Assembly: GCF_016863135.1 (NCBI RefSeq)
Contig: NZ_BOOH01000004.1
Span: 62,001-126,000 of the forward strand
Direction of reading: 5' to 3'
DNA from: Planobispora longispora
GTDB lineage: Bacteria; Actinomycetota; Actinomycetes; Streptosporangiales; Streptosporangiaceae
DNA length: 64,000 nucleotides
How positions within the stretch are numbered: the stretch's first letter is position 1; each line of letters begins with the position of its first letter. The notes under the pieces were generated by a model. The model saw nothing but the letters and a program-made list of their open reading frames with translations. It made no database searches and was not told the DNA's origin. Shown here one piece after another: positions 47,116-52,635 of this stretch. The translations under genes were made by a program, and so were the position numbers.

Positions 47116-48066
47116 TCAGCCGCGGCCGGACGCCCTGCGCTCCTCCGCCAGGCGCAGTCCCGCCTCGATGACGGCGTTCATGATCGGCGCCAGTCCGGCC
47201 TCGCCCAGAGTGGGGGCGCGGCGGGCCATCTCGGCGACCAGGCGGCGCTCGCGGTCCATGTCGCGACCGGCGAAGCCGCCGACCGGCTTGAGCCGCTGGA
47301 TGGTCCCGGCCAGTTCGACGCGGCGCTCCAGCAGGACGGCCAGGGCGGCGTCGACGCGGTCGACGGCGCCGCGCGCGGCGAGCACGGAAGCGGGGTCCTC
47401 CCGGCGGGCGACCGCGCCGACGATCCTCGCGGCCTCCTGCGCGGCGGCGACGGCCTCCGGCGCGGCGTGCGGGGCCAGGAGCAGGCCGTCGGCTCCGGCG
47501 GCGACCGCGGCCGCGGCCAGGGCGGGGTCGTCGCCCAGGCACGCGAGGACGGGACGGCCGGACCTCTCCCGGGCGGCGCGCATCAGGGCCAGGTCGAGGA
47601 CCACGCCGGCCGCCTCCCCGGAGTCCGCGCGCACGCGGCTGCCGGTCTCGCAGAACACGACCTGGTCGTTGCCCTCCGCCACGCAGTAGTCGGCGACGGC
47701 GAGCCACTCCTCCAGCGTCGCGGCGGGACCCCGCTGGACCACCACCGGCAGGCCGAGCCGGGCGACCGCGCGGACCAGCTGGAAGTCCTGCATCCAGGCG
47801 GCCCCGACCAGCACGCCGTCCGCCCCGGCGGCCACGAGCTCCGGCAGGTCCGCCGAGGAGAACGGCTCCACCAGGACCGGCCCGGCCCACTGCGCGCGGG
47901 CCTCGGCCACGGCGCCGGCCGCGGGGAGCCGCCCGTGATGGTCGCGCAGACTGATCCACCGCGCGTCCGCGCCCGCGCCGCCGATCACCACGGCCGGGCC
48001 CGCGGCGCCCACCGCGAGCGCTCCCAGGTGCACGGCTCCGCGCTCCGCACGTGCGGTCAACGACAT
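47116..48066 (-). CDS. DAHP-synthase-like domain fused to chorismate mutase (AroQ)
   Basis: 316 residues. Positions 60-215 follow the AroF/AroG-B.subtilis-type DAHP synthase ([54 protein letters not shown]), but key motifs are changed: KRG is QRG (111-113), CERG is CETG (139-142), DPSH is lost near 174-182 and the metal Glu before the HP motif is absent (LLLAPH). The C-terminal AroQ domain from about 230 keeps the active-site pattern: R232, R248/R249, K260, D269, R272, E273. So chorismate mutase activity is likely and DAHP synthesis unlikely. GGGAG lies 6 nt before ATG 48066. Confidence 0.85.
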
Positions 48067-48130
48067 GTCGGCTCCCGATGCTCAGCCGGTGCGCGTCCCG
48101 CGAACCGGCGAATCGTAAAGAAACAAAAAA

Positions 48131-48153
48131 GGCAGAGACTGGGCGTCTCTGCC
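48131..48153 (-). terminator. Strong intrinsic terminator in the leader of the chorismate mutase gene
   Basis: A perfect 9-bp stem (GGCAGAGAC at 48131-48139, GTCTCTGCC at 48145-48153) with a 5-nt loop. On the minus strand it is followed at once by TTTTTTGTTTCTTT. It lies 64 nt upstream of ATG 48066, between a leader ORF and the gene, so it probably controls read-through. Confidence 0.85.
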
Positions 48154-48187
48154 TCTGCCGGCTCCGGATGGTCGCTAGGTCACGCGC

Positions 48188-48238
48188 TCACGACCGGCTC
48201 TCCGGAGCCGGCTCGGTAAACACGGAACAGCGCTTCAT
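48188..48238 (-). CDS. Putative 16-residue leader peptide
   Basis: ATG 48238 opens MKRCSVFTEPAPESRS and a TGA. TATGGT lies 7 nt before the ATG (48246-48251), so the mRNA would be leaderless. The end of the ORF forms a hairpin (CCGGCTC / GAGCCGG, 48194-48200 and 48205-48211). The segment 48202-48211 can instead pair over 10 bp with 48158-48167, just before the terminator. This layout suits translation-dependent control. The peptide is not rich in aromatic residues (one Phe), so the signal is unclear. Confidence 0.45.
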   Translation of the reverse strand: MKRCSVFTEPAPESRS

Positions 48239-48451
48239 GCGGTCAACCATAGGCCATGACCGCACCGCACGCCACCTGGCGGACAGGCGTCTCAAATGGC
48301 GGAAGGCCCCGGCGAGCGGCGGACGGGGGAAGACGATCTTCCCGAGGTCGCCCGGCGAGACCGGGGTAGGGTGCCGTGACCCTCCGAGGGGCTCGGGCGG
48401 ATCCTCATTTATGGGAGTATCTCCTTCACTGTGAGGGAGGTTTGACGCTTG

Positions 48452-50659
48452 ATGCAGTCGGATGGGCACCAGGAAGGACGACGTGTCGCAGGCCGCTACC
48501 ACCTCCTGGAACCCATCGGGCGGGGTGGGATGGGCGTGGTCTGGAAGGCCCATGATGAGCTTCTCGACCGGACCGTCGCCGTCAAGGAGGTCCGCTACTC
48601 CGCCGCTCTCGGCGAGGACGTCCAGACCCTGAACCGGCGCATGATGAGAGAGGCGCGGGCCGCGGCCCGGCTCACTCACCCGAACGTCGTGGTCGTCTAC
48701 GACGTGATCGAGGAGAACGAGCAGCCCTGGATCGTCATGCAGCTGGTGCCGTCCCGCTCGCTGGGCCAGGTGCTCCGGGAGGACGGCCCGCTGCCGCCCC
48801 GGCGGGTCGCGGAGATCGGTCTCGCCCTGCTGGGGGCGTTGCACGGCGCGCACGACGCCGGGGTTCTGCACCGCGACGTCAAGCCGGAGAACGTGCTGCT
48901 CGCCGATAACGGCAGGGTGGTGCTCACCGACTTCGGCATCGCCACGCTCGACTCCGAGAACACGCTGACCATGACCGGCGTGGCGGGGACTCCCGCGTTC
49001 ATCGCGCCGGAGCGGCTGCGCGGCCTGCCCGCCCGCCGGGAGTCGGACCTGTGGTCGCTGGGCGCGACGCTGTACGCGGCGGTGGAGGGCAGGTCGCCGC
49101 ACGACCGCAAGCTGCCGCTGCCCACCATGCACTCGGTCCTGACCGACCCGCCCGACCCCGCGCGCAACGCGGGCCCGCTGCTGCCCGTGCTGGAAGGGCT
49201 GCTCCGCAAGGAGCCCGTGCAGCGCCTCACCTACGAGGAGGCCGCCGCCCTGCTGCGCCGGGTGGCCGAGGGCCGCTCCGCCACGCAGCCCTGGACGATC
49301 TCCTCGATCACCGGGCCCCGGGACGGCTCCGCCGAGCCGCAGGCCGCGCCCGAGCGGCGCAGGCCGTACGGGCAGGCGGCCGTCCCCGGCACGCCCGCGC
49401 GGGACGAGCAGGTCCCGCCCGCCGCCCGCCAGGAGCCGGGCGCGCCCGCGGAGCGGGAGGCGGCCCCGCGCGGGGAAGCCGGCCCGCGCCCGGAGGCCGC
49501 CCCGGCGGCAGGGGCCGCGGCGGCCGCGCCCGAGATCCCGCAGACCGGGCAGGTCGCCAAGCTGCCGCCCCCGCAGGACTCCGCGCCCGCCGCGCCGGCC
49601 GTACCGGAGACGCCGGCCGCACCGGAGACTCCCGCCCCGCGAACGTCCTCGGCGGCCGGAGAGGATCCGGCCGCCGAGGAGGCGCCGGCCTCGTCCTCGG
49701 CCACCCGGAAGTACGTCAGGGACCTCGCGGCCAGGAGCACCCCGCCCACGCCGCCGGTCCCCCCCGCGGGCGTCCCGGCGCCCGCTCCCGCCCCCGAGCC
49801 CCGGGAGCCCGCGACGGCGCTCCAGGGCGCGACCGCGATCCACCCCGCCGACCAGGAGCCGACCCTGCTCGGGACGCTGGCTCCCGGCAGGCTCCGGCTC
49901 GTGCTGCCCATCGTCCTCGTGGCGCTGATCATCGTGGCCGGCGTGGGCGTCTGGATCGGCATGAACAGCGACTCGCCCGGAGCGGCCGGGCAGCGGGAGC
50001 CTGGCACGGCCGAGCCGGACGCGAGCCCCTCGGAGGGGACGGGAGGCTCGGGGAGCCCGGGGCCCTCCGGGTCCGCGGAGTCCGGGACCGGCATGTCCGA
50101 CTCCTCACCGAGCCCGTCCGGGACCGGCGAGGACGACAAGGGCGGCGAGGACGGCGAGGACGACAAGAAGGGCGACAAGAAGGGTGACGAGAAGAAGGAA
50201 GAGAAGGCCGGCGGCAAGCTCCCCGACGGCTGGCGGACGCACAAGGACTCCTTCGGCTTCTCGGTCGGCCTGCCCAAGGGCTGGAAGGTCACGAAGCGGC
50301 GGGGCACCCAGGTGACCTTCAGCCTGCCCAGCGACCGCAGGAGCTTCCTCATGATCGAATACACCGACTCCCCCGGCCCGGACGCGAAGAAGGACTGGGA
50401 CGTGTACGAGCCCCAGGCCCGCGGCGGCTTCCCCGGTTACGAACTCATCGGGATCAAGAGGGTCGACTACATGGAGGACGCCGCCGACTGGGAGTTCACC
50501 TGGCGGCCGAGTTACGGCAAGGCGCGGGTGATCAACCGGGGGTTCCTCACCAAGGGCGGCCGGGGGTACGCGATCTACTGGCACACCCTGGCGTCAGACT
50601 GGAAGAAGAACCTGAAGCTGTTCGAGGGCTTCACCGAGACCTTTTCGTCGAAAAAGTGA
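48452..50659 (+). CDS. Membrane Ser/Thr protein kinase (PknB-type) with extracellular domain, copy 1
   Basis: About 735 residues. The kinase domain spans about 14-275: GRGGMGVVWKAHD (Gly loop), VAVKEV (Lys), HRDVKPENVLL (catalytic loop), DFGIA and GTPAFIAPERL. A Pro/Ala-rich linker of about 200 residues, one membrane helix (about 480-503), a charged low-complexity stretch and an extracellular domain (about 588-732) follow. That domain (LPDGWRTHKDSFGFSVGLPKGWKV) has a counterpart in the next kinase. ATG 48452 is used; TTG 48449 is nearer to the GGGAGG site. It probably signals from the cell surface. Confidence 0.94.
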   Translation: MQSDGHQEGRRVAGRYHLLEPIGRGGMGVVWKAHDELLDRTVAVKEVRYSAALGEDVQTLNRRMMREARAAARLTHPNVVVVYDVIEENEQPWIVMQLVPSRSLGQVLREDGPLPPRRVAEIGLALLGALHGAHDAGVLHRDVKPENVLLADNGRVVLTDFGIATLDSENTLTMTGVAGTPAFIAPERLRGLPARRESDLWSLGATLYAAVEGRSPHDRKLPLPTMHSVLTDPPDPARNAGPLLPVLEGLLRKEPVQRLTYEEAAALLRRVAEGRSATQPWTISSITGPRDGSAEPQAAPERRRPYGQAAVPGTPARDEQVPPAARQEPGAPAEREAAPRGEAGPRPEAAPAAGAAAAAPEIPQTGQVAKLPPPQDSAPAAPAVPETPAAPETPAPRTSSAAGEDPAAEEAPASSSATRKYVRDLAARSTPPTPPVPPAGVPAPAPAPEPREPATALQGATAIHPADQEPTLLGTLAPGRLRLVLPIVLVALIIVAGVGVWIGMNSDSPGAAGQREPGTAEPDASPSEGTGGSGSPGPSGSAESGTGMSDSSPSPSGTGEDDKGGEDGEDDKKGDKKGDEKKEEKAGGKLPDGWRTHKDSFGFSVGLPKGWKVTKRRGTQVTFSLPSDRRSFLMIEYTDSPGPDAKKDWDVYEPQARGGFPGYELIGIKRVDYMEDAADWEFTWRPSYGKARVINRGFLTKGGRGYAIYWHTLASDWKKNLKLFEGFTETFSSKK

Positions 50660-50709
50660 AGTCCCACCCGACCGGCTACGATTCCTGAGCCGGGGAGGGG
50701 GCGGGAGAG

Positions 50710-52635
50710 ATGACCGAACGCAGGGTGGCGGGCAGGTATCACCTGCTCGAGCCCATCGGCGAAGGCGGGATGGGCGTCGTCTGGCGCGCCCACGACGAAC
50801 TGCTCGACCGGGTCGTGGCGGTCAAGGAGGTCCGCTACCGCGGGATCGACGAGACCGAGCGGGCCGACCTGAACCGGCGGACCGTCCGGGAGGCGAGGAC
50901 CGCCGGGCGGCTCGACCACCCGTCCGTGATCATCGTCCACGACGTGGTCGAGGAGGGCGGGCGGCCCTGGATCGTCATGCAGCTGGTGCGCTCGCGCTCG
51001 CTGGGCCAGGCGGTCCGCGAGCGCGGGCCGCTCCCCCCGGAGCAGGTGGCGGCCGTCGGGCTGAGCGTGCTGGGCGCGCTGCGCGCCGCGCACGCCGCCG
51101 GGGTCCTGCACCGCGACGTCAAACCGGAGAACGTGCTGCTGGCCGACGACGGCCGGGTGGTGCTGACCGACTTCGGAATCGCCGCCACGACGCACGAGAC
51201 CGGGATCACCCGGACCGGCGGGATGGTCGGCACCCCCGCCTTCCTCCCGCCGGAGCGGCTCCACGGGCTGCCGGCGACCCCGGAGTCCGACCTGTGGTCG
51301 CTCGGCGCGACGCTGTACGCCGCGCTGGAGGGGCACCCGCCCTTCGAACGTCCCACGGCCGCCGCGACCATGATGGCGGTCCTGTCGGGCGAGCCCAGCC
51401 CGATGCGCCACACCGGTCCCCTGGCCACGGCCGTCCTCGGCCTGATGTCCAAGGACCCGGCCACGCGCATGCGTCCCGACCAGGCAGAGGACCTGCTCAT
51501 CCGCGCCGCGGGCGGGACGCCTCCCGGCCTCGTCGCGCCGTCCCGGGAGCTCTCCCGCCCCTCGCCGCCCGTCGCCCCGGCGTACGGCACGCCGCCCGGC
51601 CACCCTCCGGCCGCCCCGGCCCCGTACGGCGCGCCGCCCGGACAGTCCTCCCCGTCGGCGCAGGTCCCCGCCTACGACCGGCAGCGGCCCCGGCCCATCC
51701 CCCCCGAGCGGCCGGCGGCGCACCCCGGCGCACCGGCCTGGCAGGAGCAGCCCGCTCCGCCGGTCGAGCCCGCCCGCCACGAGTGGAACGTCCACCCCGG
51801 CACGGCCGCCGGCCACGGGCAGCACGGATCCCCGGCCGCCCGCCACGGGCAGCACGGGTCCACGGCCGCGCACCCGTGGCCGCTGCCCGCCCAGGACCAG
51901 CAGACGCACCCGGGCGACCCCGCCTACTCCGGGGGCGGGACCGGGCCGACCCATCCCACCCACGCCGAAGGCCGGGCGCCCGCCTCCGGCGGCCGGGGAT
52001 GGCGGGTGGCGCTCATGGCCGGGGTGCCGCTGCTCGCGGTGCTGCTCGGCGCGGGCGGCTGGCTCCTGTTCCAGAACCAGGAGAAGGGCCGGGCGGAGCA
52101 GGGGATCACCGCCTCCGCGACACCGGAGACGGGGACCTCCACCGCCGGACCCGCCCCCACCCCCACCCCGACCCCCTCCGCCCCGCCGGACCGGGAGATC
52201 CCGGCGGGCTGGAAACTGCACGAGGATCCGCTGGGCTTCAGCGTCGCCGTCCCGCGCGGCTGGACCGTCCGGCGTTTCGCCGGCCGCGACCGGGTGGAGT
52301 TCCGCGAGCCGGGGTCGGACCGCTTCCTGTGGATCGAGTCGACCGACGACCCGGAGAAGGACCCGGTCAGGCACTGGGAGAAGGTCGAGGAGGGCGGCAG
52401 GGCCAAGAACGTCTGGCCGGGCTACGAGCGCGTCGCCATCACCTCGCTGACGTACCTGGACCGGCCCGCCGCCGACTGGGAGTTCACCTTCCTCCGGGAC
52501 GAGGTGCCGACCCACGTGCTGGACCGGGGCTTCCGCACCGGCGAGGGCACGCCGTACGCGATCTACTGGGAGACCCCGGAGGACAGCTGGGACCGGACGT
52601 TCTTCGACCGGTTCACCGAGACGTTCCGGCCATGA
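50710..52635 (+). CDS. Membrane Ser/Thr protein kinase (PknB-type) with extracellular domain, copy 2
   Basis: 641 residues. The kinase domain (about 8-270) has GEGGMGVVWRAHD, VAVKEV, HRDVKPENVLL and DFGIA, with the APE motif as PPERL. A Pro/His-rich linker with HGQHGS repeats, a membrane helix (about 433-455) and an extracellular domain (about 494-640: IPAGWKLHEDPLGFSVAVPRGW ... YAIYWETPEDSW) follow. The match to copy 1 runs from the kinase through the extracellular end, which points to tandem duplication. ATG 50710 follows GGGAG. Its stop overlaps the AraC gene (ATGA). Confidence 0.94.
   Translation: MTERRVAGRYHLLEPIGEGGMGVVWRAHDELLDRVVAVKEVRYRGIDETERADLNRRTVREARTAGRLDHPSVIIVHDVVEEGGRPWIVMQLVRSRSLGQAVRERGPLPPEQVAAVGLSVLGALRAAHAAGVLHRDVKPENVLLADDGRVVLTDFGIAATTHETGITRTGGMVGTPAFLPPERLHGLPATPESDLWSLGATLYAALEGHPPFERPTAAATMMAVLSGEPSPMRHTGPLATAVLGLMSKDPATRMRPDQAEDLLIRAAGGTPPGLVAPSRELSRPSPPVAPAYGTPPGHPPAAPAPYGAPPGQSSPSAQVPAYDRQRPRPIPPERPAAHPGAPAWQEQPAPPVEPARHEWNVHPGTAAGHGQHGSPAARHGQHGSTAAHPWPLPAQDQQTHPGDPAYSGGGTGPTHPTHAEGRAPASGGRGWRVALMAGVPLLAVLLGAGGWLLFQNQEKGRAEQGITASATPETGTSTAGPAPTPTPTPSAPPDREIPAGWKLHEDPLGFSVAVPRGWTVRRFAGRDRVEFREPGSDRFLWIESTDDPEKDPVRHWEKVEEGGRAKNVWPGYERVAITSLTYLDRPAADWEFTFLRDEVPTHVLDRGFRTGEGTPYAIYWETPEDSWDRTFFDRFTETFRP

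Follow-up and report, generated by a model that had tools for sequence, protein, structure and literature searches.

A candidate leaderless Tyr/Phe leader-peptide attenuator upstream of a chorismate mutase gene, conserved in relatives of Planobispora longispora

What does an intrinsic terminator do when it lies between a promoter element and the start of a chorismate mutase gene? The question is raised by a leader that spans 48238-48125 on the minus strand of a 64,000-nucleotide stretch of Planobispora longispora DNA (contig NZ_BOOH01000004.1), referred to below as the window.

Organization of the leader

The leader is composed of a −10 element, a short leaderless ORF, a series of mutually complementary segments and the terminator, followed by the gene. 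The elements are:

48246-48251, minus strand: −10 element TATGGT, 7 nt upstream of the leader ATG
48188-48238, minus strand: leaderless leader ORF MKRCSVFTEPAPESRS, ATG at 48238, 16 codons, stop at 48190-48188
48228-48232, minus strand: segment S1, the control codons, CGCUG here; partner D, 5 bp here including one G-U
48218-48220, minus strand: last Phe codon; 154 of 159 distinct leaders have UUU here, and 158 have A as the next base
48202-48212, minus strand: segment A, GCCGGCUCCGG; partner B or C
48193-48200, minus strand: segment B; forms the A:B hairpin of 7-8 bp with loop CGGA
48191-48195, minus strand: segment B-prime, GGUCG; partner D within the A:C structure
48170-48177, minus strand: segment D, UAGCGACC, just past the stop codon; partner S1 or B-prime
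48157-48167, minus strand: segment C, CCGGAGCCGGC; 11 bp with A
48125-48156, minus strand: intrinsic terminator, stem 48156-48128 of 12 pairs, plus a T run
48101-48109, minus strand: segment A-prime, 3' of the terminator, complementary to C and missing from some clades
47116-48066, minus strand: controlled gene, ATG at 48066, DAHP-synthase-like domain plus CM_2

An initial annotation of the sequence had proposed the −10 element, the 16-codon ORF, a hairpin at 48211-48194 and the terminator, and all four lie where it placed them. The alternative pairing that it drew between 48202-48211 and 48158-48167 is exact and extends to 11 bp. It also stated that no other minus-strand gene could be served by the terminator, which agrees with the divergent gene at 48449 being on the plus strand. 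Two neighboring protein kinase genes (Pkinase) occupy 48449-52635, divergent from the leader.

The −10 call rests on the conserved position of the element and not on a −35, because a promoter scan of the locus found no sigma-70 site. The fold of the leader RNA is better than those of 200 out of 200 dinucleotide shuffles (z −4.67). The leader terminator is the sole terminator within 1.7 kb, where 0.2 are expected. Rfam families have no match in the window at the gathering score, and the matches around the leader are all far below it.

The downstream gene

The product of the gene at 47116-48066 combines a partial DAHP_synth_1 domain with a chorismate mutase domain of the CM_2 type, in agreement with the initial description of the gene as DAHP-synthase-like/chorismate mutase. 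It is the only CM_2 match in the nearly complete genome. Compared with the real DAHP synthase of the genome, which scores 270 bits to DAHP_synth_1, the first domain lacks GPC.E, KPRTS and DPSH and carries QRG in place of KRG. We take GPC.E, KPRTS, KRG and DPSH to be catalytic motifs of DAHP synthase; judged by these motifs, the first domain is a degenerate DAHP synthase domain. Among relatives, 66 of the 157 best matches to the window protein start past residue 200 and cover only the chorismate mutase part.

An AroH-type chorismate mutase (CM_1) is encoded on another contig (locus L332, contig C3), and the window gene is therefore not the sole supply of chorismate mutase. A like filter found no comparable leader within 350 nt of the AroH-type gene.

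Distribution of the leader

A protein search of 60 genomes gives a match in 28. A homologous leader is present at 21 of the 30 loci from this search, the window locus counted. The remaining loci are pieces, true DAHP synthases, or L017 and L018, for which no leader is seen in the upstream stretch inspected. Genome G036 contains the gene with no leader seen in the upstream stretch, and a search of it with the covariance model described below also gives no match. The short ORF, the −10 element and the A:C pairing are kept in all 21 leaders, window copy included, with TAnnnT 6 or 7 nt upstream of the in-frame start in each; A:B was assessed by eye in this set. The initial annotation had suggested a comparison with the upstream regions of relatives, and in these 21 leaders the small ORF and the A:C stem are indeed conserved, which is the decisive evidence that the observation is real.

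The covariance model, R1, was built from the 21 leader cores. Within the family it matches 221 of 341 genomes and within the order 224 of 345, nearly always once per genome among the genomes listed. Among 394 genomes drawn from the class, 38 have a match, 17 of them outside the order. Fourteen of these 17 belong to one family, f21. The ORF behind the leader resembles the chorismate mutase part of the window protein, by eye, in 11 of the 14; of the other three loci, two stop at a contig edge and one was read in the wrong frame. CM_2 is confirmed at the two f21 loci tested (L202 and L206). At L213, L217 and L218, which lie outside both the order and f21, the leader precedes true DAHP synthases (280-282 bits).

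From 173 loci, 166 leaders were parsed, and 159 of them are distinct. Because the parser accepts only leaders that have a −10 element 6 or 7 nt ahead of the start, contain a Phe codon and can form A:C, the presence of these features in the 159 leaders has no independent weight. The seven unparsed loci are L067, L068, L069, L071, L079, L169 and L171; by eye, the leader of L067 has UUC, and that of L068 is of the DAHP-synthase-like type. With tblastn, the window protein has a homologue on the same strand behind 157 of the 159 distinct leaders, the exceptions being L072 and L129.

Leader peptide and the last Phe codon

The peptide of the relatives is mostly M-x-R-[Y/C/H]-[F/S/H]-x-F-[TI]-x-P. Positions are counted from the last Phe, which the parser requires and which all 159 leaders therefore have. 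Arg stands at −4 in 109 of them; −3 is occupied by Tyr in 75, Arg in 31, His in 30 and Cys in 16, and −2 by Phe in 82 and Tyr in 22. The initial description of the peptide as not obviously aromatic thus does not fit the relatives, given their Tyr at −3 and Phe at −2. The window copy reads RCSVF, with neither the Tyr nor the first Phe, and looks like a worn RYFxF. As a leader-peptide attenuator would, the leader carries a small, putatively translated ORF whose codons call for the pathway's end product.

The last Phe codon is almost always UUU, and all 82 Phe codons at −2 are UUC. In four window genes, Phe is encoded 75 times by UUC and twice by UUU. The base after the last Phe codon is nearly invariant as well, while the residue that it begins varies (Thr, Ile, Ser or Met). 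Judged from these codon counts, the near-invariance of UUUA (48217-48220) is due to selection on the RNA. A search for a pairing partner of UUUA at the last Phe codon found none. NCBIfam has no match to the window leader peptide, queried with an in-frame extension of four residues, or to nine related leader peptides.

Leaders of DAHP synthase genes

Of the aromatic amino acids, all three depend on DAHP synthase, and only Phe and Tyr on chorismate mutase. Named genomes were scanned with the L217 DAHP synthase, and the best 80 loci were kept. A leaderless aromatic leader lies upstream at all 65 actinobacterial loci among the best 80; none of the 15 non-actinobacterial loci among them passes the same filter. 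The peptides contain Trp in 62, Tyr in 64 and Phe in 63 of the 65, with Trp within the first 12 residues; because the filter demands two aromatic residues, selection accounts for part of the Tyr and Phe counts. The leader reads RWYAYF in Microbacterium and Arthrobacter, RWYWRF in Isoptericola and Oerskovia, and RFWRY in Nonomuraea soli, and MRMWRFYF lies upstream of DAHP synthase in Corynebacterium lactis and C. amycolatum. The chorismate mutase leaders, read up to the last Phe, contain Trp in 1 and Tyr in 98 of 159.

Relatives of the window genome have such a leader at 29 of the 30 DAHP synthase loci read, and Trp is found in 28 of the 29 leaders; both counts include the genome's own, whose peptide is MRTAFWFWYGDGP. 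In this genome the leader before the real DAHP synthase, MRTAFWFWYGDGPVSRTVRPQMLR, on contig C6 (L300/L302, from about base 62), is leaderless too, differs from that of the chorismate mutase gene and is accompanied by a terminator-like hairpin. On these counts, the codons of a leader match the amino acids to which the downstream enzyme leads. R1 is matched over its whole length by four Microbacterium DAHP synthase leaders (E 1.7e-7 to 7.3e-6), and the Corynebacterium DAHP synthase leaders have no R1 match.

The 65 actinobacterial loci include one titled Sporosarcina (L244). Its leader is identical to those of Arthrobacter, and the record is probably mislabelled or contaminated.

Alternative RNA helices

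Over the 21 sequences of the first set, A:C is 97.1% paired with both-side changes at three pairs, and B-prime:D is 86.7% paired. Slid versions of the structure reach at most 47.7% paired, compared with 92.5% for the real structure. By eye, segments A, B and C have all changed in genus g74 with complementarity kept, and A and B change together in family f3.

Partners were also permuted within four clades. For S1:D, the permutations that match the real partners number 0, 0, 1 and 4 of 300, and in the DAHP synthase leaders none of 300 is as good. The longest unbroken run of S1:D averages 5.7, versus 4.4 with shuffled codons. For A:C, 0, 7, 2 and 19 of 300 permutations are as good. For B-prime:D, the count is 1 of 300 in clade c7 and 291, 76 and 130 of 300 in the other three. 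A:B gives no signal in the four clades (49, 102, 51 and 49 of 300) and is nearly invariant within clades. Seven control pairings give no within-clade signal in the two largest clades, the lowest count being 15 of 200. In these alignments covariation supports S1:D and A:C, and B-prime:D in one clade only. The apparent S1:D helix, which joins the control codons to a segment past the stop codon, is new relative to the initial annotation. S1:D and B-prime:D are mutually exclusive, as are A:B and A:C, and the control codons take part in the exchange, as in an attenuator.

Pairing was modelled at equilibrium by scaled pair sums on the transcript before the 3' arm of the terminator exists. With the leader masked as far as the Phe codon, modelled S1:D falls from 0.20 to 0 and A:C rises from 0.88 to 0.99. 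A:C is 0.88 without a ribosome and 0.92 with a ribosome at the stop codon. It is 0.77 with the ribosomal A site on the last Phe codon, because the modelled ribosome then covers part of A. Since A:C dominates at equilibrium both without a ribosome and with one at the stop codon, a switch would require co-transcriptional kinetics.

Terminator and search for an antiterminator

The two terminator arms covary with each other. A terminator above the scoring cut-off stands ahead of the gene in 158 of 159 leaders, as expected of an attenuator, and the end of C lies 0-3 nt from the scored stem in 148 of 159. An antiterminator scan found no leader or downstream window that covaries with either terminator arm, and the antiterminator on a terminator arm that marks the trp type was not found. 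The leader would work like a trp-type attenuator; it is not filed as one.

One candidate antiterminator, E:T5, would pair the codon before Phe and the UUU with the loop side of the terminator 5' arm. It was hinted at by folding prediction in several of the 21 copies and by one covarying column pair, and pooling all copies gives a weak signal (8 of 500 swaps). The candidate was ruled out, as no signal appears in any of five clades and the real segments pair less well than shuffled ones. The clade test dropped four of the 17 outside-order loci: L203, L212 and L213, whose terminator is seemingly missing, and L211, which is close to L210.

Proposed mechanism

The leader is probably a ribosome-mediated attenuator through which expression of the chorismate mutase gene depends on the availability of charged tRNA-Phe and tRNA-Tyr. 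Sequence comparison establishes which parts are present and conserved, that S1:D, A:C and the terminator arms covary, as does B-prime:D in one clade only, and that the codons are biased. The initial annotation had proposed transcription control of aromatic synthesis by a leader peptide; the conservation, the codon content and the covarying alternative helices bear out this kind of control, though not every step. Weighing against the model are the dominance of A:C at equilibrium, the finding that nothing covaries with either terminator arm, the within-clade signal of B-prime:D in one clade of four and of A:B in none, the loss of Tyr and the first Phe from the window copy, the overlap of a ribosome on the last Phe codon with A, the AroH-type gene with no such leader found, G036, where no leader is seen before the gene, and the translational reading of aroR in PMC7356990.

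The leader ATG would also be the transcription start. A ribosome would load on the leaderless 5' end and translate M-x-R-Y-F-x-F. When Phe and Tyr are ample, it would reach the stop codon and depart. S1:D and the nested A:B would then form and leave C open, and the terminator would halt transcription. A ribosome stalled on the aromatic codons would instead mask S1, allowing D to pair with B-prime and releasing A from B. The free A would pair with C, with B-prime:D nested inside, and this helix, its edge mostly 0-3 nt from the terminator stem, would permit read-through.

We infer above all that A:C, beside the terminator, defeats termination. The stalled state is taken as permissive because, according to the account of aroF in PMC11802643, Phe limitation raises aroF transcription in C. 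glutamicum; Tyr is described there as without effect. The direction of the response would thus follow C. glutamicum.

More broadly, the chorismate mutase and DAHP synthase leaders may form one actinobacterial set of leaderless attenuators, a tentative generalization to which we give slightly less than an even chance. Its codons would correspond to end products (Trp, Tyr and Phe for DAHP synthase; Tyr and Phe for chorismate mutase), and its mutually exclusive helices would form a relay, S1-D, D-B', B-A and A-C, ending beside the terminator and not in a classical antiterminator.

Relation to known systems

The best reading of the locus is a conserved Tyr/Phe leader-peptide attenuator akin to aroR/aroF of C. 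glutamicum. The aroR leader peptide of aroF contains Phe-Tyr-Phe (Neshat et al. 2014, as cited in PMC11802643, PMC4046766 and PMC7356990). As described in these citing papers, the two systems share a short aromatic leader peptide, a shikimate pathway gene and an actinobacterial host. They differ in that the gene there is a DAHP synthase, with Trp in the peptides of its relatives, whereas the gene here is a chorismate mutase and Trp is gone. In the pheL leader, Phe codons are numerous and the antiterminator is of the classical type. Like pheL/pheA of E. coli, as outlined in PMC11802643, the leader here would be a Phe-sensing leader-peptide attenuator upstream of a gene that encodes a chorismate mutase domain. 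Unlike pheL, it has a leaderless start, and no antiterminator on a terminator arm was found.

According to the main points of Seliverstov et al. 2005 (PMC1262725), the trp, branched-chain and cysteine genes of Actinobacteria have RNA elements, leader peptides among them, and the Phe/Tyr operons have no conserved upstream RNA structure. In the same terms, the present leader resembles those elements as RNA control of amino acid genes in the same phylum. A leader of an actinobacterial chorismate mutase gene was not found in the portions of the open literature covered; papers elsewhere could describe one.

If the proposed attenuator is real, the entry of the pathway and the Phe/Tyr branch step would both be under leader-peptide control in large parts of the class, and the amino acids sensed would fit the step controlled; aroR in Corynebacterium is one case described earlier. 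The leader would then be a testable control point for aromatic precursors in actinomycetes. It also poses the question of how read-through could be caused by a helix beside, not over, the terminator.

Alternative explanations

The same sensor could act with its last step reversed, A:C aiding the terminator, for instance by stacking, so that a stall at the last Phe weakens A:C and lessens termination. The Phe codon is 5 nt upstream of A, and A and C are free when the ribosome is at the stop codon (modelled A:C 0.92, versus 0.77 once the A site is on that Phe codon), both as this reading would have it. It leaves S1:D, the best supported new helix, without a role, however, and we regard it as unlikely, though more probable than the other alternatives. 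Control could also be mainly translational, with C:A-prime passing the signal on to the gene's ribosome binding site, as aroR control is called translational in the description given by PMC7356990. An unbroken C partner of at least 8 within 80 nt 3' of the terminator is present in 76 of 159 leaders, compared with 10.4% of shuffles, and is retained in L203 and L213, which by eye seem to have no terminator. The partner is nevertheless rarer with Phe at codon 8 (19 of 81) than at codon 7 (55 of 76), and was not found before the gene in the five genus g82 copies examined. Modelled access to the binding site is also static across ribosome positions in 62 DAHP synthase leaders (0.39, 0.36 and 0.36). 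A mainly translational output is thus somewhat less probable still.

The initial annotation had offered two further readings. In one, the leader gives a small terminated transcript, here taken to act in trans, and a separate promoter past the terminator drives the gene. A strong terminator, a short and highly conserved transcript, and TACGAT, a second −10-like site directly past the terminator here, are all compatible with it. TACGAT is as annotated in the window but recurs in only 11 of 159 leaders, and the adjacency of 157 of 159 leaders to a homologue of the gene, and of similar leaders to DAHP synthase, argues for control in cis; a separate promoter with a trans-acting RNA is improbable. 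The other reading, a small-molecule riboswitch with an incidental ORF, could explain a compact conserved fold and a UUUA kept beyond coding need. It finds little support, as Rfam families give no match, the ORF start, the frame to the Phe codon and the aromatic codons are all kept, and codon content tracks the pathway. We consider it the least probable of the four.

A-prime at 48101-48109 is a copy of segment A and perhaps provides a second output at translation.
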